Source of the DNA: Pocillopora verrucosa
Lineage: Eukaryota; Cnidaria; Anthozoa; Scleractinia; Pocilloporidae
NCBI RefSeq assembly: GCF_036669915.1
Contig: NC_089321.1
Coordinates: 8,838,449 to 8,902,448 of the forward strand
DNA length: 64,000 nucleotides
Direction: 5' to 3'
A program made the position numbers and the translations under genes. Within the stretch, counting starts at the first letter, position 1, and each line of letters begins with the position of its first letter. Under the pieces are notes generated by a model. That model was not told the DNA's origin. It ran no database searches and saw only the letters and a program-made list of their open reading frames with translations. This document shows, piece by piece, positions 1,044 to 63,894 of this stretch.

Positions 1044-1579
1044 ATATAATAAAGAATTAAAATATACGGAAAAATTTTAATGATGACGTCATCTATACGT
1101 CTGTCCTCCAATAGATCATAAGTGAGAACCAATCAGAATGCGTGCATAACTGAGCTTATTATATAATAACCAATGGAATCACACGAAAATTAATGGGTGG
1201 GTTTTAAGCACGGATAGCCGTCTGCGGACATTATATGTTCCGCGCACTTGGGCCTCCGCTATGATGGCATCATTTAGCGCTTTGTGGGTTCTAGCTTAGA
1301 GCCAGTAACATACTATGTTATCATCCTTTAAGTCCATAAGTATACGAAGCGCGAAGACCGACGGTATACCGGAAGGCTCGAGTTCTTGTGGAGTTCTCTC
1401 CAAGTCACTTTTTTTAAATAAACAACGACGTCTTTCAAGTAGTGAATTGGTAGGAATCGTCGTGGTTTCTGGTTCATAGCCTGAGAGTATCATTTTGAGA
1501 ATTCTTCGTAGCTGTCTCGCTACAGGTCTCGCTAGAAGTTGTAATCTAGTTGATAGAGGACTACGTCAGCTGTAGTCAA

Positions 1580-1608
1580 CTCTCCCACCGACGCAGCACC
1601 ACAGTTTC
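1580..1608 (-). repeat. 29-bp dispersed repeat shared with 56.5 kb
   Basis: Read on the minus strand, this segment starts GAAACTGTGGTGCTGCGTCG and matches 56521-56549 (plus strand) exactly over 29 bases. The second copy sits immediately upstream of a Penelope-like terminal repeat with a hammerhead-like motif. The copy here is therefore probably an inverted fragment of the same repeat family. Confidence 0.7.
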
Positions 1609-2241
1609 TGTCGAGAGAGGACTTGGTGCCGAGTTTTTTTGCCGAGGGAAACCAGAAAAATTTGAACTATAGGAAACGTGTCAAAAGATTTTCAAGGAGC
1701 AAATAAGAAACTCCAAACTATCATGGGAAAACAAGGACTGCGAATTCCACTCCCATGCATGTTCGGCTACAGTATTCTTAATGTTATGACTGCATCATGA
1801 TGTGTGGGAGGTCCTACGGAAAGTAGAACCTTGTATCTGCACTAATCAACGACACATGGCATATGAACAGTTTATTTCACAATGGTCATGATCTTTTCAC
1901 TATGACACGTTTTACAATAATCTGTCTCAGCATCCAAGAGGAATGACACTTTATTGCCCCTATATTCGGTGCTTTATTTATTATCCTGACAAACCAACGC
2001 TTTTGTGATACGTTAGTACGATATATCAATGATTGCGAGTAAATTAATAAATACAATAAGTTACATTGTAAGCTGTGTAGCGCAATTGATCGGATTCCAA
2101 TTAAAATACAAAAAAAATATGCACAGATTTAACAAAAATATAGTTCCTGTACATACAAACACTGTTAATGAAAATAAAATATCACATATGAGCACATTAG
2201 TCTAACTTATTTGCTGCCTTTTTCCCTCTTCAAAACCAAAG

Positions 2242-16639: not shown

Positions 16640-16825
16640 CTCTATATAAAACTGTTCTAATAAGGCCTTAAATTTCTGTTTAAAATATAAAATCTAAAAC
16701 CCAAGCTTTTTCCGATCAACGGCATGATGATGATGCCGTTGATCGGCGAAAGCTTGGATTTTAGATTTTACTTTTTAAACAACAGTTTAAGGTCTCATTA
16801 GAAGAGTTTCATAGTTTTAATTATG
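16640..16825. repeat. Large imperfect foldback element
   Basis: Left-arm motif CCAAGCTTTTTCCGATCAAC is mirrored on the right by GTTGATCGGCGAAAGCTTGG. The symmetry extends outward through AAAATCTAAAA/TTTTAGATTTT, TTAAA and CTAATAAGG/CTCATTAG blocks. Each arm is about 80-90 bases, and the apex is GATGATGATG with almost no loop. No coding capacity. It resembles a MITE or recent inverted duplication. Confidence 0.8.
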
Positions 16826-36332: not shown

Positions 36333-39301
36333 TCAAAGCTTTTTTTCTCCGGGATGGAATGGGTTTGGTGCACATAGCGGCAAGGAACTAAGAGTATGAT
36401 TGACAACTCGGTGATGAGCTTCGTCAGCTCGAATGGCCAAAATGACGTCACGCATCCTTGAACCATCCTATGAATAACAAAAACAAGAAGGAGAAAGAAA
36501 AGATGGATATAAAACCTTTATCATTTCAGGTTGAAAAATATTTTGTTCTAACTTGCGGAAAACTCTTACCGGTAATTTCCAGTAATTAACAGCAATCTTG
36601 GGAGCCAAAAGATTTTCCCACAGAGGCAACTTACCGCTGTCGATACACTACAAACATAGAAGATGAATGAGTCAAGATAAGATGAAGTCTGGGGAATATT
36701 TAGAAGACATACGAATTACAACCCGGCTAAGCCAACTAGAAAAGACGGTAATCTCAATCTTCGGGGTGCTCTGATACCTCAATACAATGAGTATACGTTT
36801 TAACAGCTTCCTCCTCCAGGTAACCAACAAATCTGTGGCAAAACTTGGGGCTTATCAGGTAGGCCAAGAAAAACAGGTTTACAAACGTTCCTGAAGAAAA
36901 TAAAGCCATGGAAATGTTCAGAAACGCGCTTAAAAAAAAACGATTCTGAAGGAGAAACAAGTTATTCTTATCCTTAGTATAACTGTACATAAGCACTTCC
37001 TGGTCCCTTCACATACGGGACATTGAGGCTTAAGCCACCTACCTTCAAGATTTGAAAGCTTTCTATTCTCCTAAATGAACCCTCTGCATCCTCTTGTTGA
37101 TAGTATCTTGAATTATTCACGTAATGATTATTCCATCTTCGTCACTTTTGATTCTTGTATTTATATACTTCATTTGATGGTAGAAAAATTAAAAAAGTCT
37201 TTATTCTCCTTTGATATTTGTTCGACAGTATTATAAGCAAGTTGGGTGAATTTCTGGACTGATCATTCTTGAGAGCCAATGAGTACAGTAACAATCTTGT
37301 ACCGGCAGTACGCTCAAAGTATCATGACATAACGAATCCAAAATTGGCTGTGAAAATGATTCACGTAGAGTATAGATAAATAGTATGAGGTACCTTGAGC
37401 TAGGAGAATTGCTCCCCGAAATAAAATCCCAGGTTGCTTCATTTCCAGGGCTGTCATCAAGTGCATTCTCTCGTTTTCAGCCTCCTCTAAAGATTAAAGA
37501 CATCAATTGACTTCGAGGTGATTCTGTTGAAAGCCACCACAGTTCAATTTACAATCAGCGCACCCTTTATTTTTCGCTTACCCAGAAGTGTGTGTATCCA
37601 TCCATTATCTCTCTGGAGCCTCCTAAGCGCGTGGAAGTGTCTTGTCATGCCAGCAATCATTCCAGGAACTCCTGCTATTGTCTCTAACATAATGATCCGA
37701 CTGTTGATTTAATTAAGCAGATATGTTGTGTAAACGGTACCACAAAAAAAATCCAGCTTCAAAAGAAGCTAGTCAAAAAAGTCTTAGCCACGCTGATTTC
37801 CTCCGTGTACAACCATGTATTTTTCCAATTAGAGACAAATTACAAAAATTACGCCACCTTTGCGGCCAGCTTTGGAATCAAGACGTGGCCCAGGTCAGTT
37901 TACTGGTTATACAGACCGACGTGGGGGGGGCTAAAGTGTCGGAAAACCAGCTCAAACTTACTTGAGCCAGCGGTTTTCGTCGAGCTCCATGAAGCGATAC
38001 AATGATATGATGTCGAATGCTGCTCTCAAGGCCTGAACACTTTTGTATGCAAGCTGTTGGTTAAGAGAAAGAATGAAATGGAATTATCACTCAACTGACT
38101 ACAAAATACAGATACAAAATTACACACGAACGATTTCCAGTAAATTTCTCCACCACAGTACCATCTAACCAATAACTTAGTAAAAATTAAACGAACGTAG
38201 CCTGGGATGTGTAGGGATTATGTAGACATATTATAAAAAGCTCTGAAGCACTGTGGCAGGTAAGCCATATTTTGCTGCATGGCATGACGTTCAATTTATA
38301 ACCTTTCAGTCTCGAAACTTACAAGAACATATTTTGCTGCATGGCATGACGTTCAATTTATAACCTTTCAGTCTCGAAACTTACAAGAACATATGACTTC
38401 TGATCGCTAGGAACAAAAACAATACCTCATCCACAAACTTTTGTGGTTTTTGGTGAGTAATTTTCACGCTGCGGACATCCTCTGCCGTCCTAAATGAAAA
38501 CAAAAAACAGCTAGTTTAAATAGCTTGAATTTGTAAGTGAAGTCTTTAATTTCTCACGTAGTTTTATGAACTCTGAATGATATATCAATAGATGTAATAG
38601 ATAGTATCGTGAGATTACGTTGTCTAGAGGCTCGTACCAGACTGGGTGTGGCATTCTGTAGGCTTCATCCCCAGTTGTGCTTCCATTTTTACCAAAATGA
38701 CTGATGGCTGTTTCCTTGGATGGAGTGGTTACCACTGGCGTTGGTTGTTGGACTTCTGATGTACTTTGATTTAGAATGGCATTTGTGGAAAACAAAGAAG
38801 TCTGCAAGTAACAAAAGTTCCTACTAATGGTAATAATGATAATAATACTTAATATGATAATAGTAATAATAATAATAATTGTAAAAATCATCATGGTAAT
38901 CATAATATAACGGCTGTTTACTGAGAACGAAGAAACGAAATCATTTCCCCGGCGGAGGAAAATATTACTTTCGCGAGTATGTGCTCCTTTCGTGACATAC
39001 TCCTTTCGTTAATTTTTCCTTGCGTAATGTATGTGAACCCAATATCCCTTATATTTTTGCTTTATTTCGTCATATTTTACTCGCAGAACCCCTGGATAAC
39101 TATGATTTATTTTCTCACCTTAATCGCTATCCCTTATAACACTGTAAGTAGTCTATAACTTACCCCTGTTCGCCGTGGCTGTGCAATTCCGCACAAAAAA
39201 CCTCTCAAGAAATCGACCTCAGAAATCGGTTTGACGAAAGTAAAACAATTTTCAATTCCTCTCATTGAAAGAGGAACCCGCTGGAGTCCAGTTGTGGCCA
39301 T
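36333..39301 (-). CDS. AOX: Alternative oxidase, mitochondrial, complete (AOX-L)
   Basis: Exons in transcript order: 39164-39301, 38638-38801, 38426-38489, 37962-38053, 37582-37700, 37394-37486, 36778-36890, 36570-36647, 36333-36467. All phases join, giving 331 codons plus stop. AOX is a di-iron ubiquinol oxidase on the matrix side of the inner mitochondrial membrane that reduces oxygen to water without proton pumping. All ligand motifs are visible: LETIA (E159), NERMH (E198, H201), LEEEA (about E249) and RADEAHH (E303, H306). RMPHPVW marks the start of the conserved core. The N-terminal ~90 residues are basic with few acids at first ([22 protein letters not shown]), fitting a targeting peptide. 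ATG at 39301 has the better context (AAAATGG); another in-frame ATG lies 9 bases upstream. Domain order, length and C-terminus are normal for animal AOX. Confidence 0.95.
38267..38390. repeat. Perfect 62-bp tandem duplication
   Basis: Copies 38267-38328 and 38329-38390 are identical, starting ATATTTTGCTGCATGGCATG. They lie in the intron between exons 3 and 4 of AOX-L. Identity indicates a recent event or an assembly artefact. Confidence 0.95.
38821..38895. repeat. ATA/ATG-type trinucleotide microsatellite, imperfect
   Basis: Run of TAATAATGATAATAATAC and similar units in the AOX-L intron between exons 1 and 2. Confidence 0.8.
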
Positions 39302-41372: not shown

Positions 41373-44300
41373 AAATTTGTCAACAAACAATACAAAGGAA
41401 GCACTTACAGAACTGTATAAAATTTCTCCTGCTGGCCATGTTCCTCTGCACATTACACGTCCACCTTATGCTGACACTGGTACAGTGCCAGACCCACCTT
41501 ACTCCACTGAAATTAAAACAGAGAAGCAGATTGCTCTCATGAGAACAGCATGCAGAACAGCCAGGAAAGTTCTCAATGTGGCCAGAGATAGTATCAAGGT
41601 GAGAATATTTTTTTGCTACTTTTATCTGATGTATTTCAATTTTTCCTTCATCTTTTCATCCAAGTGCTCAGGCAGTTCAAAAAGATTGGTGAATTATTCT
41701 TAATTGCCAGAAGGGAATTAATTTTTCAGTGGAACATTGACACAACATGTATACAATAAAATGGGTGTTAGTTGGTAACGTTTATTTTAAGACATTGCAA
41801 TCATGTGTGATACTGAAGTCACTTCAGTCACTGAACTGTAGGATTTTGATAGAATTGACCTACACACTTGAATTCCATAGATGAATTATGAGGTCATGAA
41901 GACTTAAAAGAGTAACATGCAATGATGCACATTATAATCTTGTACATTATATTTAGCTCCTTGAGCTAAGTCAGTTTGATCTCATTTTTTCTTCTTTTAA
42001 GGTAGGTGTTACAACACAAGATATTGACCAGATTGTACACCAAGCTGCAATTTCATTTGGAGCCTACCCCTCTCCTCTGAACTACAAAAAATTTCCCAAG
42101 TCTGTGTGTACATCTGTTAATAATGTGGCTGTACATGGTATACCAGACAGGTAATCTGCTTCTACACAAGGAATAATTAATTTTTGTGGTACGGTTTAGT
42201 GGTAATTTTTATATGGCATGATTTATATAGTGGTGAAGTACTTAGTACCTCTAGGATTGCAAAATTTTGTTCAATGTAGTCTAGGGAAGATCTGATCTAC
42301 CGATCGTTATTTGAAAGAATTGCTGTAGGGCTAAATAAGACTAGGATTAGTGTAATTTAATTACTCATTGGTTACACAACTGATTTGTTGGAACCAAATT
42401 TGGTAAAAACTCTACTCATTACAGCTGTTAGGATATTTTGTTTATTTCATTGCAGTCGATCTTTACAAGATGGTGACATTATTAGTGTGGATGTTTCTGT
42501 AAGTGTGACATGATATATACGGTTGGAGTAATTATTTGATTAAGAACATTGTGCACTACTTTTTATGGTTTAAAAGATGAATTCTTGTAGTTAGTTATTT
42601 TTTGCACCTGTGAGCAGAATTATGTTTGGATCAGTAGTATGACAACTTACAATGATGCAGTATGATGCTTGTGTGTGGTTATATGTTATATAATTATTTA
42701 ACTTGAGAACATTGTCTCAGAGGAAATGTTACTATTTCTTTGCAAAAGTCAATCATGTTAATATTTAGCCTTTTTATAAATGACAGCAATACTCCAAATT
42801 CTCTCGCATTCAAGCAAAAGACCAGTTTATCACAGTGACTGTTATTGATTTGTGAATGTAATAATCAATACACAGAGGCTTAAATCATGTCTTATAAGAA
42901 AGTTTCAATACAAAACTTCCTTTTTTTATTTTCCTGTATGATATGTAACACTCCTGTGTTCCTTTTTTTGTAATTGTTTTCTTCAGGTCTTCATTGGTGG
43001 TATGCATGGTGACTTGTGCACAACATATGTAGTTGGTTCTGTTGACAAACAGGGTCAGAGATTACTAGAAAGCTGTCAGCGTAGTCTTGATGCTGCAATC
43101 AATATCTGTAAACCTGGAGTACGGTTTTCGTTGATTGGAAACACAATTGAGTAAGTAGAACAACTAAATTTGGCTATTTTTGGAGAATGTTGCCATACAT
43201 GTTCATCTCTAATGTTGGTAATGTTTGTGTCTGGTAATAGTTTTTGTTTGTTAGGGCTCTTTCATCAGGAAAGTTTGATTTGCTTCTAGATCTGTGGCTG
43301 GGAAGGATGGATTCACAGTTTGTCCCAATTTAGCAGGTCATGGTATTGGATCATACTTTCATGGACCTCCAGAAATTTTGCATACAGGTTTGCAGTACTT
43401 GTAAGCATGCACAACTCCAAAGTTATGATTCTGGTTATTTTTATTTACCTTCCTCTTCAAAATGAGATCCCCATAGGTTTTCACACAGGAACTGAAAAAA
43501 ATTGTTGATTCATATTTTTCCTAGATCATTTGATAAAACCAACAATCTTAAAGCTTTATTGTTCTTGGCTCAGCCTCCAGGCAGTATGCACTATTACCAA
43601 TGGAAAACTGGATGCCACTTGGATATCAATTTTTTTTTTAAAGGAATCCAGTAAGCTAGATAGGCGGTACAACGTGTCTTTTATTGCAGTTTCATCAAAT
43701 TTTACTCCTCCCCCAGGAATCTCATTTAAAAGGTTAAAATTTTGTATGAAATGTAAGGCTTTAATTTCTCATATTCTTCTCTTCCTCTTCTTTTCACAAT
43801 AGCAAATTATAAACCTGGGAAAATGGGACCAGGCATGACATTTACTATTGGTAAATATCTTGACTATCAAACAGCTATTTTATGAATAGGTATAATATTA
43901 CCTGGCAAGAACCTCATTAAGGTAGACCTTGTAAAGCCCAAACTGACAGTTGGCATGGTTACCCGTTACTTGTCCTTTTCCAAAGCACTACTATTCAAGT
44001 ATTGATTTCTTAGCTCAAGTATCCCTGGTGCTCTCAGACTTTCTCATGGTGCAGATCAAAGCATAATAGCTTGAGCTGACCACTTAACAAGAATGATTAT
44101 GCACGAAGAAAAAGTGTAGGTGAGAGTTTTTGCTAGTGGGACTTTGTTAAGGCAGCCACAAGAGAAATGTTTTCATTAGCATGCTGCCTAATTATAAAGG
44201 TCGTATATGTGAAAATGTATCTTTCATTTCATTAAATGTGGCAACTTTGTTAATATTTAATAGTGTAGTTTGATCGTTCGGGTGAGTGTAGTGCTGAGAA

Positions 44301-46117
44301 GGATTGTTGTCGGTAGTGGTGACTGACGTGTCGACAACCTCAGCGGAAGTCATCATCAGAGTCAAGTGAATAGTTGTTGTTAGTCGAATGTTCTTAGTCC
44401 GGTTTGTATAAACTGATTGTTCAGTTTTGCCGTGATTTTATTGGCTGCAAAACTCGAGTGGCGTAGGTCGTTCGTGATTGGTCGGTCTCGATCTGTTAGT
44501 GAAGTTGGATCGTTCTGTTCGGTTCGTCTGTAATGTAAATGTCATGAATGAGTCGTTTGTATGATGCCGGTAGTGGTTGACACCTGTTGAGGGGAATCTG
44601 TTCCAAGTTAGTCGACCAGCTTTCTAGGGTCAGTCGTTAAAAGTAGTTGGTGCTGTAGGTTACGCATTGCGCAGAGTCCCAGTCAATAGTGTGGTTCGTA
44701 AGTTGGTGATGTTCAGCAATGTGATTGTTGACATCGCCTTTCCTCGTCGCTCGTTTGTGTTTAGTTAGTCTAGTTGTAAGGTTTCTACCAGTCTCACCGA
44801 TGTAAGAGGCGTGGTAGTCGGAGCAATTGATCTTATACACTGCAATTACTGCTCCCTGTCTGTTCCTCGGTTCGTCTTTGTCTTTGACGTTAGTCAATAA
44901 CTGACGTAGTGTGGTAATAGGTTTTGTGAGCGACGCGGATATTGAATGGTTGTAGGATGAGCGAAATGTTCTCAGATATGCCCTTTATGTACGGTATGAT
45001 TACTGTAATTGTAGGAGTTGCGTTGTTGTTAGCGGTGGTAGTAGTAGTAGGTCGGTGAGTGTCACGTTGGATGAAGTCTTCGTTGTAGTTGTTCTTTGAA
45101 AAAACGCGGTCAAGGTACTTGTTCTCGTTGGATAAGCTGTCCGTCGTGTTGCATACTAGTTGCGCTCGTCTCGTAAAAGTCCTGATAGTTGTGGCTTTGC
45201 GTGATTTCGGGTTGTAGGACAACTCGTCCAGTAATTTGTCGGTATGTGTCGGTTTCTTGTAAACTGTTGTCCATAGTGAGTTATCGTCACGGCTTACCAG
45301 GTAGTAAACTGTATGTCAGTGTTTAGTCCGTTAAGGACTATCGACAACAGTCCTTCTCAGGACTACACTCACCCAGACGACCCAAACTACACTATTAAAT
45401 GTTACCCCCGGGTTCAAACCACTTGCTGTATTTGTTAATATTCAGAACCTGTCCTTTGTGAGGGATCTCCAAAAATAGCTATCCTAGGAGATGGTTGGAC
45501 TGTTGTCACAAAGGATGGTAAAAGGTTGAGTACACCAGTTTTTATTCAATCAGGCGTAATAGTTAGTGATATATGAATACAATTCAGTATCATTTGTCCT
45601 CATGTGGCGCGCTGCAGAAGAATAACTATTAGCTGAAAATTGTGCTACTTCAAGTTTGAAGGCTCAGGAGCTTAAGGGGCTTGAGGAACCATTCTAGGCC
45701 AGTATAAGTCAGGATCAAGGGTTTGCTTGTGGGGAATTTTTACCAAATTCAAGAAATGAAAAGGTCAAAAATGTACCATGGCAAAGCATCATTTCAATTC
45801 TTACTTAAGATTAATGCAACTGGTTGGAAAAGATGAAGGACTACAAACAACAACTTTATGCCTTAAAATATGTCCTGCGAATACTGATGAGGGAAAGCTA
45901 CTCTAACATCCTTGTTGTTTCTTCAGTGGATGTTGAGACGAGTGTTATCTGTTAGCTCATTCCAATGCAGACAGACAGTATTGTCATTTTTAAACTTCTC
46001 ATTTTTCATGTATGATTTTTTTCCGTCTCTTTCTCTCTCAGGACGGCACAGTTCGAACACACTGTTTTGATAACAGATTCTGGTGTTGAAGTACTTACTG
46101 CTGATACCAAAGATTGA
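41373..46117 (+). CDS. METAP1D: Methionine aminopeptidase type 1D, mitochondrial (5' exon not found)
   Basis: Exons: 41373-41598, 42002-42150, 42456-42498, 42987-43150, 43290-43387, 43803-43850, 45446-45524, 46042-46117. Phases are continuous and about 294 codons including the stop are visible. The enzyme removes the initiator Met from proteins, here predicted in mitochondria. Type I MetAP landmarks: [19 protein letters not shown] (catalytic His), [11 protein letters not shown] and [10 protein letters not shown] (two metal-binding Asp), [14 protein letters not shown] (metal His), FTIEPVL and [11 protein letters not shown] (two metal Glu). All five metal ligands are kept. The upstream segment [20 protein letters not shown] is the linker typical of METAP1D rather than the zinc-finger N-terminus of METAP1. 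The intron between 43850 and 45446 holds a Penelope-like element in opposite orientation. A possible polyadenylation signal lies at 46464. Confidence 0.92.
44321..44363 (-). ncRNA. Hammerhead-ribozyme-like motif in the PLE terminal repeat, probably inactive
   Basis: On the minus strand: stem I GACT/AGTC, conserved CTGATGA, a stem-loop closed by GAC/GTC, then CGACACGTC where an active ribozyme has CGAAAC followed by the GTC cleavage site. One core A is replaced by C. Stem III is reduced to almost nothing, as in the minimal hammerheads described from Penelope-like elements. Confidence 0.65.
44637..45222 (-). pseudogene. PLE protein fragment: linker plus GIY-YIG endonuclease domain, frameshifted
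   Basis: Two open frames in different phases join near 44922-44925, where a run of four A (minus strand) suggests a single-base insertion. The upstream part contains [20 protein letters not shown] and [12 protein letters not shown]. The downstream part contains [20 protein letters not shown] and [18 protein letters not shown], the GIY-YIG-type signature (Y...YIGET, R, H) found at the C-terminus of canonical PLE proteins. A two-codon insertion sits before YKINC. The reverse transcriptase core is absent and the copy cannot be autonomous. Confidence 0.85.
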
Positions 46118-47527: not shown

Positions 47528-48523
47528 CACTGGTAAGATTTAATTATACGTAAACGGCCACTTTTCCTTTGTTGTCTCTGGACTTTGCATGCTTTCCGAA
47601 GAAGTGAACTACAGGAACACTAGATCAATCTCTTGATAACATCGCAAAAATTGTTTACAGGAAATGCTCTGAAGTTTGAAGTTTCACCTGTTAGATTTTT
47701 AACTAAGTCTTTTGAAAGGACTTTTGATGTTGATAGTGGCACACATTTTGACGATCGATCTGAACGAAAGTCCTATTTCTCGGCCCAATCGGTGTTTTAC
47801 AACTAACTCGGGAAACAACCAACTCATCATCTTGAAATACGGCGAACTTCTCTGATATACCCCCTCTTAAGTGCTATTTTCAAACTTTTAACTGATTAAT
47901 TAGATCGTTTCGTGTCTTTCAGCAATAGTTGGTTAATTTTCCCCATTTATTACTTAAACTTTCATCGCTATTTGTTCTTCCGAGAACTTTGCTCTCCTAT
48001 TGTGACACCTACCTTTTAACCTGAGATACACGGACAAAGGACATATTCATAAATGGCATCTGTAAATCTCTCAACCAGAATAGATATGGACTTTTTTGCA
48101 AGTTATTGGATACTTTTAAATCGAACATTAAGACCTTTCCTTTTAAACGTTTCTATATTTGATATGTTATATAATTATTTTGTTGTTTATATTGTTTGAA
48201 ACTTTGTTGCTTAAGAACTTTCTTCTATAGAAGTTTTGTGTTGATATTATGTTACTTACTTATTTAAAACACTGTTTGGTACTCTGTAGAAAGAAAACCG
48301 TACAAGTCATATATTTTATTATTGTTATCATTATTTAATTCTTAACTGTATATCAGTTCATTTTTTCTGTTTTTGTAAAGAGTGAAATACCATTTTAACC
48401 CAAAAGTGTTTTAAATAGAAATTGGGCCAAGTTAGGGGTTAATGAGGACCAGTGAATACCTTATCTCAAGGAAGTTGTGTTATTAACAGTTCAAAGCGGT
48501 AACATATCTTTACCTTTCTGTAG

Positions 48524-49215
48524 GGGTTTATGACCTTGCTTCCCCAAAAACTGAAGGTGATCTTCCCAAGGCTTCAGTTCCAGATGAAGGTGACAGCCTT
48601 TGGTCTGTTGATTCTGTTCCAGATTGGAACAAGGCAAATCCTGGAGAACTTTTTTTTGACCAAGTGGCTGAACTTGAGAAGCTCATACCGGGGGAGAGAA
48701 GCAAGGGACACTGTTTGGAGGAGTCTTGGATGGCAGATGTGGAGTTGCTTAAGAGTGAAGAGACCATCAACAACTGGACTGGTCCAGAAGAAAAATTTGG
48801 TGGAATTGACCAACCTGATAACATTTATGTCGGAGCACAGAATGTTGGCTTGGATATTTGTGGCAAAAGGGAGGTGGAAAGCAAAGCTTTCATTATGATT
48901 GAGCAACAAACACTTAAGCATTCAGATGTGCTGAATGGGGAGGCAGCAGGAGCACTATTTGATGTCTCCCAAGATTCTCCTTCATCAGTTGGAAGTTCTT
49001 GCAGTGATGAAGTTTCAGACAAGAGAATAAGGAACAACCAGGCTTCAAGAAAGTTTCGTCGTGCAAGGAAAGAAAGAAATAATTCATTGTTTGTGAGAGC
49101 ATCAAAGTTAGAGCAGGAAAACCAGGCCTTGAAGCTTCAAGTTAATCAGATGCTTCAGGAAGTAATTTCTTTGAGGTCTATGCTCTCAAATAATACTTTT
49201 CCCAGTCAATTTTGA
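48524..49215 (+). CDS. bZIP transcription factor (ATF4/C-EBP-like), start unresolved
   Basis: A single large terminal exon. The acceptor CTTTCTGTAG precedes 48524 and the stop is TGA at 49213. The basic region reads NNQASRKFRRARKE and fits the bZIP signature NxxASxxFR. It is followed by a heptad leucine zipper (LFVRASKLEQENQALKLQ, then VNQMLQEVISLRSML). The N-terminal part is acidic with Trp/Phe (DSLWSVDSVPDW, GELFFDQVAELEKLI, ESWMADVELL), resembling an activation domain. The zipper pattern LExxNxALK...EVxxL is reminiscent of ATF4, but the family is not settled. No ATG occurs in frame before 48730 in this exon, although the sequence upstream of it looks coding. An undetected upstream exon, or the exon near 47.4 kb with non-AUG initiation, may supply the start. 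Confidence 0.75.
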
Positions 49216-53300: not shown

Positions 53301-56300
53301 ATTTCCCAACAGTCGTATCATTATGTTGGAGACAGTAGCAGGAGTGCCTGGAATGATTGCGGCGATGGCTCGTCATTTTGATTCACTGAGGAAACTTACG
53401 AGAGATCATGGATGGATTCATACATTGTTAGGTATTGACTCTTAATATGCATTGAAGGTGCAGTGGTGAAGGTATCAGAGAGGAATAGCTAGCGTTTTCA
53501 TTCAAACTGAGATGGCGGAAAAAATTATGCGCGCTGTGATAATATCCCAGTAAACGTATACACTTTCTTTAAGCTTAATAAACACTGATTTCGGATTAGC
53601 CTGCAGTGCAGGCGTCTTGTTAGTGCGAGCTAACGCTAAAAGCTCGCGATCGTTTGTTCGACCGGCCATTTTTGACCGTCAACCGCCCCCTTGGTATAAA
53701 TTTTTCCTCTCCTCAGCCTTCCGCTGCCATTAAAATCAAAGATGGCGGACATAATATTCGTTATGAAATTACTTAGCATTTGCTAGCCTAAATTACGCCT
53801 GATTTGCAGGCTAATTTTGGATATGTAATTTGATTTTATAATTTGCTTGAACATAATCGGAGCTTATGCTTTAACGCCGACACGTTTTACATAATAGGCT
53901 GATTTAGCAACAGGACGGTAACGTCAGTTGACGACGGGAAAGCGCGCGGAAAGGACTAAACACGACTTCCGGTGCTAAATTTGCCGCTCTGCCATTGGTC
54001 AAGCCAGTTGTTTGATTTGTGCGCGCCGTCGTCGACTGACGTTCCCGTTCTGTTGCTAAATCAGCCTACTAAGTTTATTAGACGACGCGTTCTAATCAAC
54101 AAGTTTCTTTTATATCGGAACGAATCGGAAAGTAATCTGCACATATTGAACTAAAACAGGGTGTCTGGGATTTGTATTTTAACGCCTCGTTATATTTTAA
54201 TCATTTTTTTATATTTTTTAAATAGTATTACTTTTGAGCAAAGTTTTCAATGTAGATGCTATATCTCGAGAAATAAGGAAAAAGTAAAAAATCCGGGACA
54301 TGCTTTTGGGTATCAACAATATCTCCCAATTTCACGAAAATGGACCGAATATCAGCCGAGAATGAACTCTCAAAAGACCTGAACTGAACTCTCAAAAGAT
54401 CAGAACTCGAGCCAAAATACTTTACCAGAAAAAGCGACTAGAAATTTTTCGGGGCGTTGCTGTTTGTTTACATAAATGCGTTCCCGCTTCACACCTGTGA
54501 AGGCTGTTATTCAACCACATTGAAGCAAGCCATTTGACACTGCTCTGCCTGTACAAGGAGGAGGAGCAGGGCAGAGGGAGGTTGGACGATGAAACGAGCG
54601 GATCCGAGCTGGTTCGAGCAAAAAGGTGTAATGCAGTCGACTGGGACCGACTTCAAACAAACATTGGCTTTTTCTAAAAAAGATGGCGGCAAGTTCGGCA
54701 ATTTTGGATAAGCTGGAAGAATTGTTTGACTGGGATCTCTAACGGATGACCATTTCTGTTCTACCAATGTCATTATGTCGTCGCAGAAGTTTGTTATTGA
54801 TAGGTTGACAGATAGAGGGGTGGATAGACGGAATGATTAAAAAGATTTAAAAGGCTTCCAGGAAAACTTTGAAACATTTGTCTTATTAGTTCCTTTCAAA
54901 TTCTGACAGCTATCACTTAGCAAGCGCGAAAAAAAGCCCCCTCTTTTGAATGAACAACAGTAAAACTCGGGTTAAATGAACATTCCGACGTTTTTTTTGC
55001 GAAACAGTCAGTGATCTTAAGAAAAGTATTATTCATTTCCATCGACGATTAATGTACGAGGCTTTACCTCTGCTCTGTCAGTTTTGAATGGCAAGGAAAG
55101 TCATTGTAAGTAAATTTAAAATGGATGTTTTTTGAGTATTGAGAATTAGTTCATTTGTTTGCTGCAGTGACGTGTGCAAACCTTGTCTTTCTTCCACCGA
55201 AAAGCTGAAGTCAAATGAGGCACTTTATCTCGAAACAAGGGAATGAATGCGGCGTTTATTCGTCGATTTTTTGCGGTTTCTTTGGCGGAATACGTTACAA
55301 ATTACCACATTCAACGGACTAGCAAAGACGAACCGAAAGTTTATTCGTAGTAGACCTCACAACTTAGCTCAACGTTTTGCAAAGAACAATTCAGACATTA
55401 AACGAATACACGTTACGTTGATTAATGTAATTGTAAACAAATACTTCATGTTGCAACTTTCTTAATAAGTACTCTTTTTAAGGTTATTGACTAAATCACA
55501 AACGGTTTTTAGGGCACGTGTTATTTTTACTTGATCATCACGATCTAATGACTTCCTTCCATTTTTTCGTTTCTTTCACGTGTTGTTTTCGAGGAGCCAA
55601 AGTTTCTGTTCTTGTTAGTCGGTATTTTTTGTTGTTGTTGTTGTTGGTGTGGAGAAGCATCGCTTTGAAATGGTTTCCCCAATTCTTTCGTCACTTTGAT
55701 AATGTGTTATCTCTATCTCCCTCGACACATAGGCGGTAAGAACTAATATCTTTGGAAATAGCAACTAAATATAGTACATGAACATCGAGTATAGCCAACA
55801 ACAATAGTAAGTAATCTTCGTTCAATGATGACTTGTAGTTTGCAGATTGTGCAGATCGTAATTACCAGTACTAAATATAATTATGCTAAAGTTAAAAACC
55901 TTGCCAACACGCATGTTAACTGATATAGTTTTACCATTTACTGTCTTTCATATGACTCTCCATTCAAAGGTAGATACGCGGGGTGAGCGCTCGTGCCAAT
56001 CCTATTCCGCACCACACATTGCTAGAGCGGTGTTACAGTGTTTTGGGTATCCCCTCACCAAAAACACTTAAAGGGAATTAAACAGGAGATTGGGGTGGAA
56101 AAAATATAATTTATTGCAGAAAATTGTCATCCAAAGTTAATTCTCGCACCTGAGATTGTGGTTGGTGAAGAGAGAAGTGTTCATTTGTTGTCTCTAAATC
56201 GAAAGAGTGATCAGTCAGCAGTTTCAAGTGTGTTGCTTTGCAAGTAAATAGTAGTGAATAAATAAATGAATAAATAAATAAGTGCAGTTCAGCCAATCAA

Positions 56301-56504
56301 TTTTAGACACACACGGAAGGAAGATCTTTCCACTTGTTGGAATTTCGCGTTTGAGAAAATGACCGAAACCTTGTACTTTTCGATTGGCCCTAACCTCTGC
56401 TGACTCTGGGAGTAATCATAACTGTCTGACTTGTTGACCATGTATGCGTGTGTGTGTGTCTTCTTGCTTCAGTGACCTTTGCAATGTTATCAGAAATTTA
56501 TAAA

Positions 56505-56549
<45 letters not shown>

Positions 56550-59500
56550 TATAGCAGGTAATTTAGTGTTAACAACTGGGTTGAAAACGTAAATTAGCCA
56601 CCGTAAAGAGTAAAAAAGCTGACGTTTCGAGCGTTAGCCCTTCGTCAGAGCGATGGAAATTTACTACGATTTGGGCCAAGTATCTTGGCAGCAATGAATC
56701 TCTGGGATATGAAACTCTTGTCGCTTTTGGACATGGTAACAGCTTAAATAAAATAAAATTTCAGAAGTTGATCAGTGAGATCTTTATATATTTTTTTTAT
56801 GATATATTAAATTTTCAGGAAATTGAAAAAAAGAATGAATTTTTTCCTTCTGTGATACCTTAATTCATGAATTTCTACAGTAATGATAACAAATAAAGAT
56901 GAATGCAATGTCAATTATTTATTACATTTATTTTTTTATCAGAAGAGGCAGAGAATGAGAGAATGCACTTAATGACAGCATTGGAGTTAAAACAACCAGG
57001 CGCTTTATTCCGCGGAGTTATATTGCTTGCTCAAGGTGATTATCAAATAATTTGTTAGAGTTAGGCAGTTCCTGTAAGAAAAAGAGGGTTGATTGACCAT
57101 TTTTCTTTATTAATATGATTAAACGTATACTGAAAAACCAAAGAAATTTCCTGCAACGTTTGTTTTCTTGATTTCTTCCTTTTTTGCGCAATTTGTAGGT
57201 GTCTTTGTCAACTGCTTCTTTGTGGCATATATATTAAGCCCCAGGTTTTGTCACAGATTTGTGGGATATTTGGAAGAAGAGGCAGTCAAGACTTACACCT
57301 ACTGTTTAAAGGTAATTTAAAATCAAGAACTTAACCCTCTCAGCTTTGTTTCGTTCCTTTATTAAGTCAAAATTCCTCGCAAGAATTCAGGATCTTTTCT
57401 TCCAAACTAATGCACATTGTGACCATTGCTAAAATACATTTGATAATTGCTACTGCTTCTGATCTTCAATAAAATGGGCAAATGATTTGACGAGAACACT
57501 TCACCATGACACGAACTTTTTTTTTTTGCGTTTTCTGGTTGATAGCTGTATTTAAAATTTAAATTCATCGACCTTATCACCTGGCGAGTTGTCCTTGACC
57601 TTTCTTTTGTGCATTGAAAGTACGATTTGGCGGCCAAAAAAGTATCCCCATCTAGCGCGCGGCCAAAACGATCATTGTTTTATAGCTGTGACTTAAAAAA
57701 CTATGAAGACAAGTCGAAAACCATGGTGGGGAAAGGAGAAATCAAGAAGAGAGGACCAACATGTTGCGTGTCCGGAGCGCAACATGTATATCTATTCACT
57801 TCTTTCCAAAAGATGCCACTGTATGGCCAAATGGACGCGTTTCGATAGTCGATATCGAGAAGATTTGCTCTTTGCTCTCGTCCTTGTGTTCCGTCCTGGC
57901 TTCGAAGACAGCTGTTACGCACATCACTTACCGCTGGTCAAATCAGGAGAAGATGGCCAATTAATTCAGCTAAGAAGAATGCCGATAAGGGGGCCTGTTC
58001 CCACACCAAAAACGACTGTTGCACATTCTTTTCGGCTGACATTTCGTAGGCGAAGAATGGCGAGCTTCTTATTGTTGTTTATTTCACGCGCTTGAGATGA
58101 ACTTGTGAACACAAATATTAATGAATTAGATGGTAGCGAATCCAAGTGATCTTTGAAAGTCGATCAATGAATACGAAATATTCATTTACAACACCGATGT
58201 CAGTTATTTGCCAGCGAGCGAAATAGGTCATGTAGCAATGCTGCACTTAAACTAAAGAAGTTTTTCTCTACTAAAATCCCTATTTTAGATAAACTTAAAT
58301 CAGACGAATTTAAACTCACTCTTTTTCCGTTTGACCGGCTGGACGACGATAGCCTCTGTCTTTGCAATCTCTGAGGAAAGGAGCAACTTGCAGTTGAACT
58401 ACCCAATGACTTCTCGGCGAAAATCATTGTGCCTCATGATACAGCTGATTCTTTCGATGTTGCCGTCAAAAGTTACTTTTTTGGTTTGCTTAGAGAATTA
58501 CTCTACGGCAACGAAGCTCAAGAGCACTCACCAAGTGGAACCTTCGCTGCACTTAATGCGAAGGAATATGTTATGGCAACAGAAACGAACACAGCCTCAG
58601 GTCCTATTTACACTACTCGTTTCAGTAGTGTTCTTAGCTGCAAGGATCTCTTAAACCGAGATTTAATATTTCTGAACTTTTTCTTCTATCGGAAGAATAG
58701 TATCTTGGCCTATCTTTGTTTTTTCTTAGTAATTGATAAAAGCAGTGGTATCCTAAATATAGGGTTGTTGCAATTGCGCGATAAGGTGGAATAGTTCTCC
58801 GCAAAAGATGATATTCTCTCAGTAAGGCCGTCACAACCTGAGATCAGTTATAGGTCTACCGACCGGTACTGGTTTGTGTATTTTTGTGAGCGTATAGAAA
58901 GCCATTTCTCAGTCATGTCATCAATGTGTTTGCCCTGATGCATTTGGTCAATGACCCTTTCCCTTTCCTGCGTGTTTTTATGGCTACTGCGTCCTATGGA
59001 GGCAGTAGCCATACATTCCCTTGTTCTCTTCAATGCTATAAAAATTGTGCGGTATCAGTAGCCACATGCAGTCATAACTGCCTATTTTTTTACTATCGGT
59101 GCTCTGAGAGGTTTGTAGTGAACTCTATTGCCGAGGTGCACTTTAGCCTCTTCTATTTTTTTTTCTGTCTTATTTGTGATGACTGTTGTTGTACCTTTGT
59201 CTGCTTTTTTGAGGTTTAAAGCAGAGTTGTTTTTCAACTCTTTTGGAGCCGTGACCTCATTGCGAGTTGTGCTTTGACAATTTCCAAGTAGCCCTCAGGG
59301 GCAATAGAAAGCTGAACCGGTGGCATCCAGTTTGATTTAACATTAAACGGATGTGGCTCTTTGTTTTGTCCGTGAAAGATGTATTGGAGGCGTATTCGTC
59401 TTGCAAATTGTTCAAAATCTCGCTAGAGTTGTTGCCTAATTTTACATTCGTTTGTCACGAGTGTTGCGATTAATTTGAGACCCTTTGATGGCACGCTGAC

Positions 59501-62500
59501 TTGACTGTCAGAAAGTTGACGGTTTGAGAGCTTTTTAGGAATTTTTCATTTGTCTCCCTTTCTTTGGAAGTGTTTCTACGCACTCTGCGTCTTTTGCTCT
59601 TTGTTCTGCTTCCGCTGTTGTTAAGGCTAGTCTTTTTAAAGTCAGAGAACACACTGTTATATTTTCTTTCTCTTTTATTTACAAGTGTATAAAAAAGCTC
59701 TTTATAATAAAGTTCGGATATAACGCGCGCTGTCATTGGTTAAAAGAGCGTGCTCTATGAGAGTAAAGAGCATAGAACTGAGCTAAAGCTGTCACGCCAT
59801 CTGCCAAATTGTACCATGTTCGACCTTTTCCGGGACTCATTTTTAGCTTTTTTCCGATAATTGAAAGTGAAATTTCGGAACAAGCGAGCCGGCAAGTAGT
59901 AACAGAAGAACCAAAGAAAGGTTTGTAAACATACCAGGCGCCGTTATTTACGTTATGTGTATAAAAGAGCTCTTTTTAGAGTCACAACTCTCATTCCCTA
60001 ATTCGGCTATTGTATCATCGTTTTTTAAGATGTTCGCCGAGTGCTCCTTTGAGCGGTTGCTTATTTACATGTTTGTACGTCTTTGAACCAGTGTTGTTTG
60101 CTTGATTGTGATTCAAACGTCTCGCTCACCTCCAATTCCGTGCCCGGAATGATTTTTAATTTACATCACTCATTTTCGCTTAACTTTCTTGCTATAATAC
60201 TGATAGACTTTTCGATACTGAGCTGGTTGAATACGACCTTTTTCATTCGAGATGTTGCCACAGTGTCAGCGCGCTAAGCGATCACGTAACTGTGTTATTA
60301 TAGCAGGAAAATCACAATATAGTCAGCGATAATGGTGTGTTGCTGCTCAGTAACTTCGCTAGAAACTGAAAAAACAAAAAACAAAACAAAAAAACAAAAA
60401 AAAAAACAGCTATCTCTTTCCATTTTAGGTTACTGTTAACATAGTCTAGTCAAAATTTTAATTTTTTTTTTATATTTTAGTTCGAGTAAGCATCCAAGTT
60501 AAATTTGTCAAAAGAAAAAATATAATTTCTCCAAAGAACGCGGGAGTGTTTTAAGTCAGCTGGAACCGAATAGCGAAAGGTGTAATAATCCAGAGTGTTG
60601 ACGTTTTTATCTTTTACGAGGCTTTTACGAAATTCGAAATATTTCAGTTTGTTCAACTTCCAATTGAAATTATCGGGAACCAAAAGGAATATCGAAAAGG
60701 CCTCACGACCTTTGTTAGCGTTTTTTTTTTTTTTTGTCTGCTGGGTGACACTGTCACTCAGTTTGGATGTCTGCGTTAACGCGGAGGCTGTTAATTGACT
60801 TAAATTGACACCGTCAGTTTTGTCTTTAAATTGCTTGCGCGTGCTTATCAAAACAAAACTGTTCAAACTTTGTTATATTCAGAACCCATACTTTAAAGTG
60901 ATACGTAGTTCGCTATGTTGTTTTCTTTCTTTACGTAGCGCGCATAGGACGATTTTTCTGGAAGGCATTCTATTTTGTTGTCAGTAACCCGCTTAAGTGG
61001 TACGTTTTGGAACTGTCAAGTTGGATTCTTTAGTGAATGTTTAAAGATCAACTCTAAAATAAGTAAACTTTACCATTCAAAAAACCAAATGTGATCTTTA
61101 CTGACCCTAACAAATCTTATTCTCTTGAAAAGGACGAAGAACAATATCTAGGGTACCTGCAGGCGCTGGGTGGTGTTTCATTAGTTTTCACACAAAGCAG
61201 TCGTGTGTGATCAGTGTCTTTTTCAGAGAAGTTGATATCACGAAGATTATGACCTGATTATGATCAGTTTGCGTACAGCGAACTTAGAGTGATTTTCGCT
61301 GATGTTTCTGAAATCGTATGAAACTTACATCTAATAAAGGCTAAGAAGAATTTGTATATTGTGACATTAAAAGCGCGTGTAAATGCAACGAAGTTCACTG
61401 AAATGAACTTGGCGTCCTTTCTTTGGTAAAAGCACAAAGAATGTCGACGTGACCTTTAAAACGAGTTTCGTTCTTATGAGCACAATTCGTACTCAAATTT
61501 GATGAGACTTGTATGATATTATATCATATGAGAGCCTTGATCTTGAAGTTTATTTTTTTTGGTTTTTTTGGTTTTGATGTTGTGAAATTAAGAGTGCGCT
61601 CAAAACTAACGGCGAAATTTGGCAGAAAGAAAGTTGGCGTCCTCTAGGAGTCTCTAAAGAACAAACGGATCAAACTTTGAAGTTATTGGAATAATAAGTT
61701 GTTTGTCAGCGATAATCCCTCCGACGGCCGCATTCGTTGACTTATTCCATTAATATCGTTGCAGAACGAAGTATGGTCGTTGAAAGCTCTTTCTCTGGAT
61801 TTCTGAAAACTCTTTAAGACTTTTTGATTGAGGAGCACACCCCTAGGTACTTCCCGAAACGCCGAACGAAATTTCCCTAATTCTGTGACGACGATGGATA
61901 AGTTAATTGCCCTTAATTGAATTGGCTTCAAAATACTTTCGTATGGTTAAATAACTTGACTGTATAATGAAAACTGTGTCTTGTAGAGCCCAGAAATTGA
62001 GAAGTAATATGTCAAAGACAGGGGCGAGTTCTTCAAAACGGGTTCCAAACATCGAGAAACATGGTGATGTTTGGCGTTTGGAACCGCGATTAAGCACAAA
62101 GCTGGAGTTTTTGATATGTCTTCTCAAATGAAAGAATAAATTATTAAACAGTGATATGTTTTCTTAAATCAAACAAAGATAAATTATGCATTGTTACATT
62201 TTTGGCCTTCACTGATGGAACGTGTTTACATGTTATTACATCTTAGCTTTCATTTGATGTAAGTTTCATGCGGTTTCATCTGGTTTCCCTGTACGTAGAC
62301 CGATCAGTCTTCGTGATATCACGAAGAACGTTAGCCATTAAAATGGTTAACGTTCCATAATTGAGACGCTACACAAAAAGTTTGAGTTCCTTTCGCCGCA
62401 TTTGTTCGCACCTCTAATTTTGCAACAAACTACTACAAGGTATATCAGCATCAAACCATCGCCAAACTACTACAATTAAGCTTTCGTTTGATTTTACTTT

Positions 62501-63894
62501 CATAGAAGAGGCTAAACATAACGCATGAGTCAAATCGCCATCGGTGACAATTTAACTCTCAGTGGTGGAGAGTTTGGTGCGAGTTTGTTGGAGGTGGCGA
62601 GTCTGTTGCAGTTGCGAATCGACCGTAAACTGTTTTGTTTCATTAGCCATGTAGCTCACGGATATGACTAACACCTTCATTTCCACACCTCAGCAAGTGC
62701 TTGGATGTGAAGTTTGAGATTTTTAAAAAGGGCTTAATACGGTGCTCTCCTAAGGTCAAAAAAGACAGGCGGTACAGCATAGACCGCACATTATAACCCA
62801 CGTACTGTTTACACTGTTCTTAGTTATTTTTGTAAGGAAATGCTAGGCAAGATTGGCAAGATTTCGGTATAACCCTGACTTCATTTTGCATACATATTCC
62901 TAGATGAATGGAATAAACAATAAAAATAGTTGGGGATTAAGTATTAGTAACTGAGTCGATAACGTAAATTTGCCAACTTAAAGAGTTTTATAGATGATGT
63001 TTCGAGGGTTACCCCTCGTCAGGGCGAATGGAGGAATTATGGGTTGTATATGTGTTTAAATGCAGAAATGAGTACAGTTGAAACCGTTTCAAGTGGCTGT
63101 GTTCTAAGCGGTCTCCCCTTATTATGAGGTGTTTTTGAAAGTTCAGTATTGTAATTTTCACATCTATTAAACGGTCGTGGTCACCCGCAACTGAGTCCCA
63201 TCGGCCTGTATTGTCTTTCACCAGTCACAAATGGTCACTGTTTCAGACGGAACTGTCTCAAATATGACTAAGAATAATCTCTAAAGTATAAATTATTCCA
63301 TGTTTATCTCCGGAAATTAATGTCAGCACTCTAAATTAAATATTGAAGTGTCCTCAATACATTGCAGGTTTTCTCTCTTCCAAGTACAGTTAGGACAAAG
63401 TGGTGTTTTTTTATCGTGTCTGACCTCTTCTCTGTTGAAGCTGTATTCAGCAGTCAACCTGTCATTCTGTCATTCTATGTAAGTGACAGGTTCGACTGTA
63501 GCTCAGAAACCTCTCCAGTTACCTTTGGCTGACAAACTTAATATTTTATTCGCTTTGGTTGACGAAATCTACCGTGCTGTAACAAACATTGACTTCCTCT
63601 GTTGATATGAATAAGCTTTGAAAAGGAGCTAACATTTCATTTCCTTAACGTTTTATACAGAAATTAAATTGAAGTAATTTTATGTCATGGAGGGCTGGGT
63701 ACCATGATTGCTTTAGCATTTAATCGTGGTCAGCAAAGCATTTAAAATACAGAGAAAGAAAATCGAAGCCGTATATTTTGAACACATAGTAACAACAATA
63801 ATTTTCTTGATGGCAGTGTATTGATGACGGAACTCTTCCAGTTTGGAGCACAAGACCTGCACCAAGCCTGGCTATTAACTACTGGAGGCTTAAA
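50379..63894 (+). CDS. AOX: Alternative oxidase, mitochondrial, second copy (AOX-R), 3' end outside window
   Basis: Exons: 50379-50525, 51068-51204, 52118-52181, 52648-52739, 53313-53431, 56943-57035, 57199-57311, 63817-63894. Phases are continuous; 281 codons are visible. Exons 3-8 are 64, 92, 119, 93, 113 and 78 bases long, identical to those of AOX-L. Core motifs present: [41 protein letters not shown] and [11 protein letters not shown]. The last iron-binding motif (ADEAHH type) should be on the next exon beyond 64000. The N-terminus ([32 protein letters not shown]) is Arg-rich and fits a mitochondrial targeting peptide. The start is the first ATG in the frame. Intron 5 (3.5 kb) and intron 7 (6.5 kb) carry repeats. 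The core differs from AOX-L at many positions, so this is a real paralog and not an assembly echo. Confidence 0.93.
53895..54068. mobile_element. MITE with about 43-bp terminal inverted repeats
   Basis: Begins TAGGCTGATTTAGCAACAGG and ends with the matching reverse complement CTGTTGCTAAATCAGCCTA. The inverted repeat continues through the GACGTCAGT-like and GTCGACGACGG-like blocks, with a few mismatches. Total length 174 bp, non-coding, in AOX-R intron 5. A possible TA target duplication could not be confirmed. Confidence 0.85.
55631..55646. repeat. (GTT)5 microsatellite
   Basis: Perfect GTT run in AOX-R intron 5. Confidence 0.9.
56516..56700 (-). mobile_element. Isolated Penelope-type terminal-repeat fragment
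   Basis: Contains GTTAACAACTGGGTTGAAAA, ACGTAAATTAGCCACCGTAA and the block GACGTTTCGAGCGTTAGCCC. A diverged copy in the same orientation lies at about 62945-63060. No coding sequence is attached, so it is a solo or truncated terminal repeat. The boundaries are approximate. Confidence 0.6.
56618..56651 (-). ncRNA. Minimal hammerhead-ribozyme motif with intact core
   Basis: Minus strand: stem I GCT/AGC, CTGACGA (fits CTGANGA), a hairpin GGGC-TAAC-GCTC, then GAAAC and the GTC cleavage triplet. Stem III is only the self-complementary ACGT, which would need a second molecule to pair, as described for PLE-associated hammerheads that cleave as dimers. There is one extra A between the CTGACGA core and stem II. 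Confidence 0.75.
58231..58620 (+). other. Unidentified protein-like stretch with one in-frame stop
   Basis: One plus-strand frame reads as plausible protein for about 130 codons ([20 protein letters not shown], then [20 protein letters not shown] and LLRELLYGN), interrupted by a single TGA near 58369. I do not recognise the family. It could be a broken gene or retrocopy fragment, or chance. Confidence 0.3.
58800..59560 (-). pseudogene. Remnant of a Penelope-like reverse transcriptase, N-terminal region
   Basis: Minus-strand pieces in several frames read [67 protein letters not shown] and [14 protein letters not shown], in the order expected for the segment of PLE proteins before and into the reverse transcriptase. 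Stops and frameshifts separate them, so the copy is dead. It covers the part of the protein missing from the 44-45 kb fragment. Confidence 0.75.
60368..60407. repeat. A-rich low-complexity tract
   Basis: Runs of A interrupted by single C, about 40 bases. Confidence 0.85.
62309..62355. repeat. Two abutting palindromes
   Basis: CTTCGTGATATCACGAAG (62309-62326) is a perfect 18-base palindrome. It shares its last base with a 30-base near-palindrome starting GAACGTTAGCCATT and ending AATGGTTAACGTTC (two non-matching pairs). Function unknown. Confidence 0.8.
62945..63060 (-). mobile_element. Second Penelope-type terminal-repeat fragment, diverged
   Basis: Aligns by eye with the 56.5-kb copy: ACTGAGTCGATAACGTAAAT, TTTGCCAACTTAAAGAG, TTTCGAGGGTTACCCCTCGT and the following CAGGGCGAATGGAGG. 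Same orientation as the other copy. No coding sequence. Confidence 0.6.
62993..63025 (-). ncRNA. Hammerhead-ribozyme-like motif, degenerate stem
   Basis: Minus strand: CCCTGACGA, a GGGG..CCTC hairpin, GAAAC, then ATC at the cleavage position. The core CTGACGA and GAAA are kept, but the ACGTC of the other copy is ACATC here and stem I pairs poorly, so activity is doubtful. Confidence 0.5.

Follow-up and report, generated by a model that had tools for sequence, protein, structure and literature searches.

A minimal type I hammerhead ribozyme motif antisense to AOX in Pocillopora verrucosa, a probable relic of a Penelope-like insertion

The window analyzed here, a 64-kb stretch of the Pocillopora verrucosa genome, carries two inverted alternative oxidase (AOX) genes, one at 36775-37706 (minus strand) and the other at 53307-57314 (plus strand). 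Their matching exons are 71%-78% alike, and their intron lengths are very different. The plus-strand gene contains a phase 1 intron of 3,511 nt at 53432..56942, with ends placed by eye on the basis of the splice signals and the reading phase. One exon on either side of this intron matched the Pfam AOX family (E values of 3.5e-16 and 3.7e-17); these scans exclude the exon that directly follows the intron, at 56943, which shows 76% similarity to the second AOX copy. In this second copy, which lies inverted at about 36.8-37.7 kb, the intron at the same phase 1 position is 95 nt long (37487-37581, minus strand), and no hammerhead motif was seen in it.

Other repeats and frames were noted in the window. 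An open frame of 242 aa (48487-49215, plus strand) has a C-terminal end that resembles, by eye, a basic leucine zipper. The 169 nt at 16645-16813 are 84% complementary to themselves, and long self-complementary stretches occur at 866-1041 (76%) and 53889-54074 (69%). Two direct repeats were found: one of 67 nt with 100% identity at 38266-38394, whose copies overlap by a few bases, and an adjacent pair of about 107 nt at 12081-12300, 85% alike. An inverted 38-nt pair (61309-61346 and 62241-62278) is 87% complementary, with its members about 900 nt apart.

A minimal type I hammerhead motif with an intact core, which we call copy A, lies in the long AOX intron on the minus strand (56618..56651), 291 nt before the acceptor. 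Read from 56651 to 56618 it is GCT-CTGACGA-A-GGGC-TAAC-GCTC-GAAAC-GTC-AGC. Direct reading of the strand found all the parts that a sequence-only reading had listed at this place: the core, the stem II hairpin, GAAAC, GTC, and a GCT/AGC stem I. Stem II has four pairs (G-C, G-U, G-C, and C-G) and a TAAC loop, and stem I has three. As that reading had also said, and as is seen in the sequence, one extra base, an A, precedes stem II, and stem III is replaced by ACGT only, between the core and the cleavage site. The cleavage triplet is GTC, with the predicted cut between 56621 (the C of GTC) and 56620 (A). The orientation claimed for the motif, antisense to the AOX pre-mRNA, is borne out, with the intron on the plus strand and the motif on the minus strand.

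The core was defined by the invariant positions of the hammerhead, and copy A has all of its parts (CUGANGA, stem II, GAAA, and a NUH cleavage triplet). It also agrees with the definition of the minimal hammerheads of Penelope-like elements (PLEs), which are type I with a missing or very short, palindromic stem III. As an exact sequence, its 26-mer has a single occurrence in the 64-kb window.

The chance level of the motif was estimated with a descriptor consisting of CTGANGA, GAAA, and then C-N-T-not G, in which stem II needs 3 bp or more and may be accompanied by one extra base, and the gap is 6-30. The descriptor was composed after copy A had been seen, which flatters the result, though the margin is large: the two strands of the 64 kb together held two core-perfect sites, whereas 300 dinucleotide shuffles averaged 0.013. 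When a stem I of at least 3 bp was added, one site was left, copy A, against 0 in the 300 shuffles. The looser pattern CTGANGA-N{4,30}-GAAAC alone was found three times in the window against 1.31 expected, which is not significant. The descriptor search also gave a further site with two core mismatches, at 52277 on the minus strand.

Of 57 IMG/VR stretches pre-selected by a loose core pattern, several of which are the same sequence in different contigs, three (L015, L039, and L056) matched the descriptor. Only L039 among these three had a stem I of at least three pairs (four pairs, two of them G-T), and the near-identical stretches L034 and L041 failed the descriptor. All the stretches were treated as chance; in a very large collection, chance does reach the descriptor. 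Neither the exact motif nor the tail nor the 31-mer core had a match in IMG/VR, and the GTDB scans were also empty. A search of literature text with the motif sequence as words found nothing.

The sequence-only reading had named the lack of a covariance-model match as one result that would refute the motif, and none was obtained with the Rfam 15 hammerhead models, the search having used Rfam only; by that criterion the result speaks against the motif. In the whole window no Rfam family, and hence no hammerhead, reached its gathering score; within 71 or 1,501 bases around copy A no hammerhead family appeared at E values up to 10. At a relaxed threshold no hammerhead was detected either around the two further motifs described below, copy B and motif C, which are poor controls, since one has a damaged core and the other lacks stem I. 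The Rfam hammerhead models are probably built on a closed stem III, and the hammerheads of PLEs have none, so we weighed the missing match lightly. The description of PLE hammerheads as lacking stem III is that given in PMC7761336.

The copy A motif belongs to a dispersed repeat. An older, related hammerhead with its tail, copy B, was recovered at 62926..63025 (minus strand) by repeat and core-pattern searches and by alignment, and the two copies make up repeat D1, 76% identical over 91 nt in the window repeat search (blastn E value of about 1e-15). Copy B keeps the core and stem II; stem I is lost, and its ACGT has decayed to ACAT. A nhmmer profile of A and B gave 98.0 bits for B, both copies being in the model, and no third match above threshold was found in the window.

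In an alignment of A and B whose gap was placed by hand to line up stem II, 77 of 101 columns were identical overall, and so were 12 of the 12 catalytic columns (hypergeometric, 0.031). All four stem II pairs are kept in both copies, and one of them is changed on both sides, from C-G to G-C. Conservation of the hammerhead columns (24/28) against the tail (49/67) was not significantly different (Fisher p 0.14). Copy B was first met through the core pattern, which favours a kept core; the repeat search also recovers it independently.

Motif C (44318..44366, minus strand) was found by the descriptor with one core mismatch, and it has the layout of copy A: an extra base before stem II, GTC, and ACGT. 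From 44366 to 44318 it reads TTGACT CTGATGA T GAC TT CC GCTGA GG TT GTC GACAC GTC AGTCA. Its stem I has 5 bp, its stem II is broken by an internal loop and is unlike that of copy A, and its core is the same in layout with one base changed (GAAAC to GACAC). When one core mismatch was allowed and stem I had to reach 3 bp, the shuffles averaged 0.053. Because the extra base before stem II recurs in motif C, it is probably a trait of such motifs and not a defect or private oddity of copy A.

A GIY-YIG endonuclease-like piece occurs 5' of motif C, at 44640..44984 on the minus strand (Pfam GIY-YIG, E value of 7e-4, 20.3 bits, under the cut-off of 22.6), and its frame ends about 270 nt 5' of the motif. 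A second open frame of this remnant, 44893..45315 (minus strand), overlaps the piece in another frame, and we take it to resemble, by eye, the C-terminal part of a Penelope-like RT. For this frame no match supporting RT was found in the Pfam and NCBIfam libraries, and its chitoporin match at an E value of 0.3 was taken as chance. The terminal sequence of the element (44251-44317) has an inverted copy at 45337..45404 (plus strand), 88% identical over 68 nt. Among the Penelope copies treated in PMC3846280, inverted pLTRs are described as flanking the element. On the strength of the GIY-YIG-like piece and of inverted ends such as those described for Penelope copies, 44251-45404 is a probable PLE relic with a decayed hammerhead of the copy A layout at its 3' end.

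Relatives of the GIY-YIG-like piece were not confirmed in viral contigs and were not found in the PDB, and NCBIfam gave nothing useful. An AlphaFold single-sequence model of it had a mean pLDDT of 32.6 and was discarded. When the regions around the motifs were compared, 15 of 500 shuffles scored as high as A against C, so that the two are not convincingly alike; the counts were 28/500 for A against a region D, 18/500 for B against region D, and 149/500 for B against C. A and C are not claimed as one family, the similarity of A with C and of A with region D being unconvincing against the shuffles. The assignment made in the sequence-only reading, a stem-III-poor hammerhead of Penelope type, gains backing from copy B and from motif C beside the GIY-YIG-like remnant, all in the same window.

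The 70 nt 3' of the cleavage site of copy A (56551..56620, minus strand) form a tail that is common to copy B, as seen in repeat D1 and by blastn. The computed fold of the copy A tail is a long hairpin (-11.5 kcal/mol). A conserved hairpin in the tail was considered as evidence of covariation and dropped, since it is missing from the consensus fold of the two copies; most of it is lost in B. Beyond the tail, copy A has a C-rich extension of 31 nt (56520..56550, minus strand; 14 C, 7 A, 6 T, and 4 G) that was not seen in B. Window self-comparison found the same segment, 31/31 identical, at 1579..1609 on the plus strand, without an intact hammerhead. At that second locus (1440-1660), the segment comes after a hairpin GACTAC...GTAGTC, and by eye the sequence upstream may hold a strongly decayed hammerhead.

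The optional tail of Penelope is given as 31 bp for one element in PMC3846280 and as 30-40 bp in the account of PMC11167929; the extension of copy A is a candidate for such a tail. In PAc, a Poseidon-type PLE of Anolis carolinensis, reverse transcription is described as starting at nt 111-118 of the ORF, within an AC-rich stem loop, and the hammerhead as cutting at position 26 (PMC11167929). The distance from cut to start in PAc is 85-92 nt, and the C-rich segment of copy A spans 71-101 nt after its own cut. The templates of A, B, and C appear to have been uncut at the expected site, because all three carry sequence on both sides of it.

The ends of the insertions are marked by candidate repeats. 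An 8-bp putative target-site duplication, TAAATTTC, surrounds copy A on the minus strand (56656..56663 on the 5' side, and 56493-56500); it is a weak candidate, as about 2.4% of 20,000 random placements were as good. A 7-bp direct repeat, TCCATTC, flanks copy B (63032-63026 and 62912-62906), and about 8% of random placements match it. In both cases the 25-nt span used for the test was chosen after the repeats had been seen. The flanks of motif C showed no direct repeat of 6 bp. In the examples given in PMC3846280, Penelope target-site duplications are 8-10 bp long. If the flanking duplications are real, the A and B inserts would be short and would start just 5' of the ribozyme; the A/B alignment extends slightly further 5' than the candidate duplications, which speaks against them.

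Our results show that copy A is a genuine hammerhead motif, of a common and already described kind. We consider it likely that it is the relic of a PLE-type hammerhead, the 3' end of a 5'-truncated Penelope-like insertion. The insertion would be an old one, lying antisense in the AOX intron, and copy A would keep the minimal type I hammerhead of the element together with the tail where such elements start reverse transcription. For copy A itself, the PLE origin is suggested by its sequence and its relatives, the latter known from this one 64-kb window and from published papers. The search for PLE domains around A and B (Pfam, 22 of 33 minus-strand frames of at least 60 aa, 48-64 kb) found none and gave weak, unrelated matches only; the window ends about 1 kb 5' of copy B. 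A truncated insertion explains this result, and an element without a frame would explain it too. A tandem pLTR was not seen in the window self-comparison. Nor does copy A have a tandem partner in the window, the nearest core-perfect motif on its strand being copy B, 6,374 nt away; this is expected of a truncated copy.

The role of the hammerhead in the parent element would be to cut multimeric RNA between tandem units. Because ACGU is the only stem III, cleavage would need either two motifs paired through their ACGU sequences or the aid of the element's protein; we infer this dimer or protein-aided cleavage by analogy with known elements. Lone copy A is probably inert in its present place, given that it is on the wrong strand in the AOX pre-mRNA, that it has no intact tandem partner, and that a hairpin competes with the hammerhead; our confidence in any activity is low. 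This hairpin, CUGACG/CGUCAG, comes first among the computed folds of copy A, making up 90% of the ensemble at -12.3 kcal/mol, while the hammerhead reaches -5.6 kcal/mol. With two copies, both a pair of hairpins (-24.6 kcal/mol) and the best joint fold (-26.6) score lower than the double hammerhead (-9.5). These energies ignore tertiary contacts and show only that pairing alone does not favour the active state.

The dominance of the hairpin in the computed fold gives ground to another reading, in which copy A is the palindromic hairpin of a non-coding repeat, for example one derived from a DNA transposon, and its likeness to a hammerhead is a by-product. We judge it unlikely: in B the outer hairpin is broken, yet the 12 of 12 catalytic positions and stem II, with its two-sided pair change, remain. 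Against it also stand the score of 0 in 300 shuffles for the core with stem I, and the core layout that motif C shares, one base apart, with an unlike stem II.

Under the PLE reading, the same pairing might have had a function, an idea that we put forward as an improbable one. The CUGACG core strand would pair perfectly with CGUCAG, on the strand that carries the palindrome of stem III together with the cleavage site and stem I, and would act as an off-switch that locks a lone motif; only a partner motif or an element protein bound to the tail would open it. The hammerhead-plus-tail unit would itself move in trans as a short insert whose start lies immediately 5' of the ribozyme in both A and B; provided that the candidate duplications are genuine, the inserts measure about 155 bp (A) and 113 bp (B). 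By hand count, the pairing is 6/6 in A, 6/6 in C with one U-G, and 4/6 in B; the core and ACGUC by themselves already account for three of the six pairs, so that only the other three are additional. In the computed fold of motif C, stem I persists and no more than the four inner pairs form. If true, the off-switch would give a reason why a PLE hammerhead cleaved only with protein added, as described for the element treated in PMC11167929.

Two further readings were considered. One takes copy A for part of a non-autonomous retrozyme that has a canonical type I hammerhead and would make small circular RNAs; the type I topology and the frequency of retrozymes in cnidarians (PMC7229834) agree with it. 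We regard it as very unlikely, because copy A has no closed stem III and no tandem unit surrounds it in the window self-comparison; the next core-perfect motif on its strand is 6.4 kb off. The other, that the host has taken over the motif to regulate AOX through an antisense transcript, would suit an intact core within an intron of the gene, and we give it slightly less credence still, since the motif is on the wrong strand for the AOX pre-mRNA and missing from the 95-nt intron that the second AOX copy has at this position, and since other such remnants in the window make an insertion in an intron unremarkable.

Minimal type I hammerheads of PLEs were reportedly described by Cervera and De la Pena in 2014 and by Lunse, Weinberg and Breaker in 2017, and the 2017 paper is said to report the pairing of two motifs as a dimer. 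Copy A would be one more copy of this widespread retrotransposon ribozyme. With A, B, and C in one window, the locus offers a clean example of what hammerhead relics keep and what they lose, and copy A provides a core-intact sequence for asking what makes such ribozymes depend on a partner or a protein.

Three known systems can be compared with copy A. The metazoan non-LTR retrozymes, in the account given by PMC7229834, have type I hammerheads dispersed in the genome, as does copy A; theirs are canonical and stand in tandem repeats of 150-450 bp, whereas copy A has neither a closed stem III nor a tandem repeat. PAc resembles copy A in what lies about 100 nt beyond the hammerhead: a C-rich stretch in copy A and, at that distance in PAc, the AC-rich stem loop where reverse transcription starts. 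PAc differs in its coding sequence, which copy A does not have, and in that its hammerhead was shown to cleave only with its protein added (PMC11167929).

The closest likeness is to the minimal hammerheads of PLEs. In the descriptions of PMC7761336 and PMC6466107 that concern them, stem III is missing or very short and palindromic, and most minimal motifs are dispersed in non-coding regions (PMC7761336). In Acropora millepora, more than 6,000 type I hammerheads are reported, of which 1,508 are canonical and all the others are like the minimal PLE/Terminon kind (PMC7229834). Unlike the PLE hammerheads, copy A stands alone, has an extra base before stem II (shared with motif C), and has no attached element frame that we could find. 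Like them, it is type I, with a full core, a near-absent stem III, a palindromic ACGT, and dispersed non-coding copies, and it fits the published description of dispersed non-coding minimal hammerheads.
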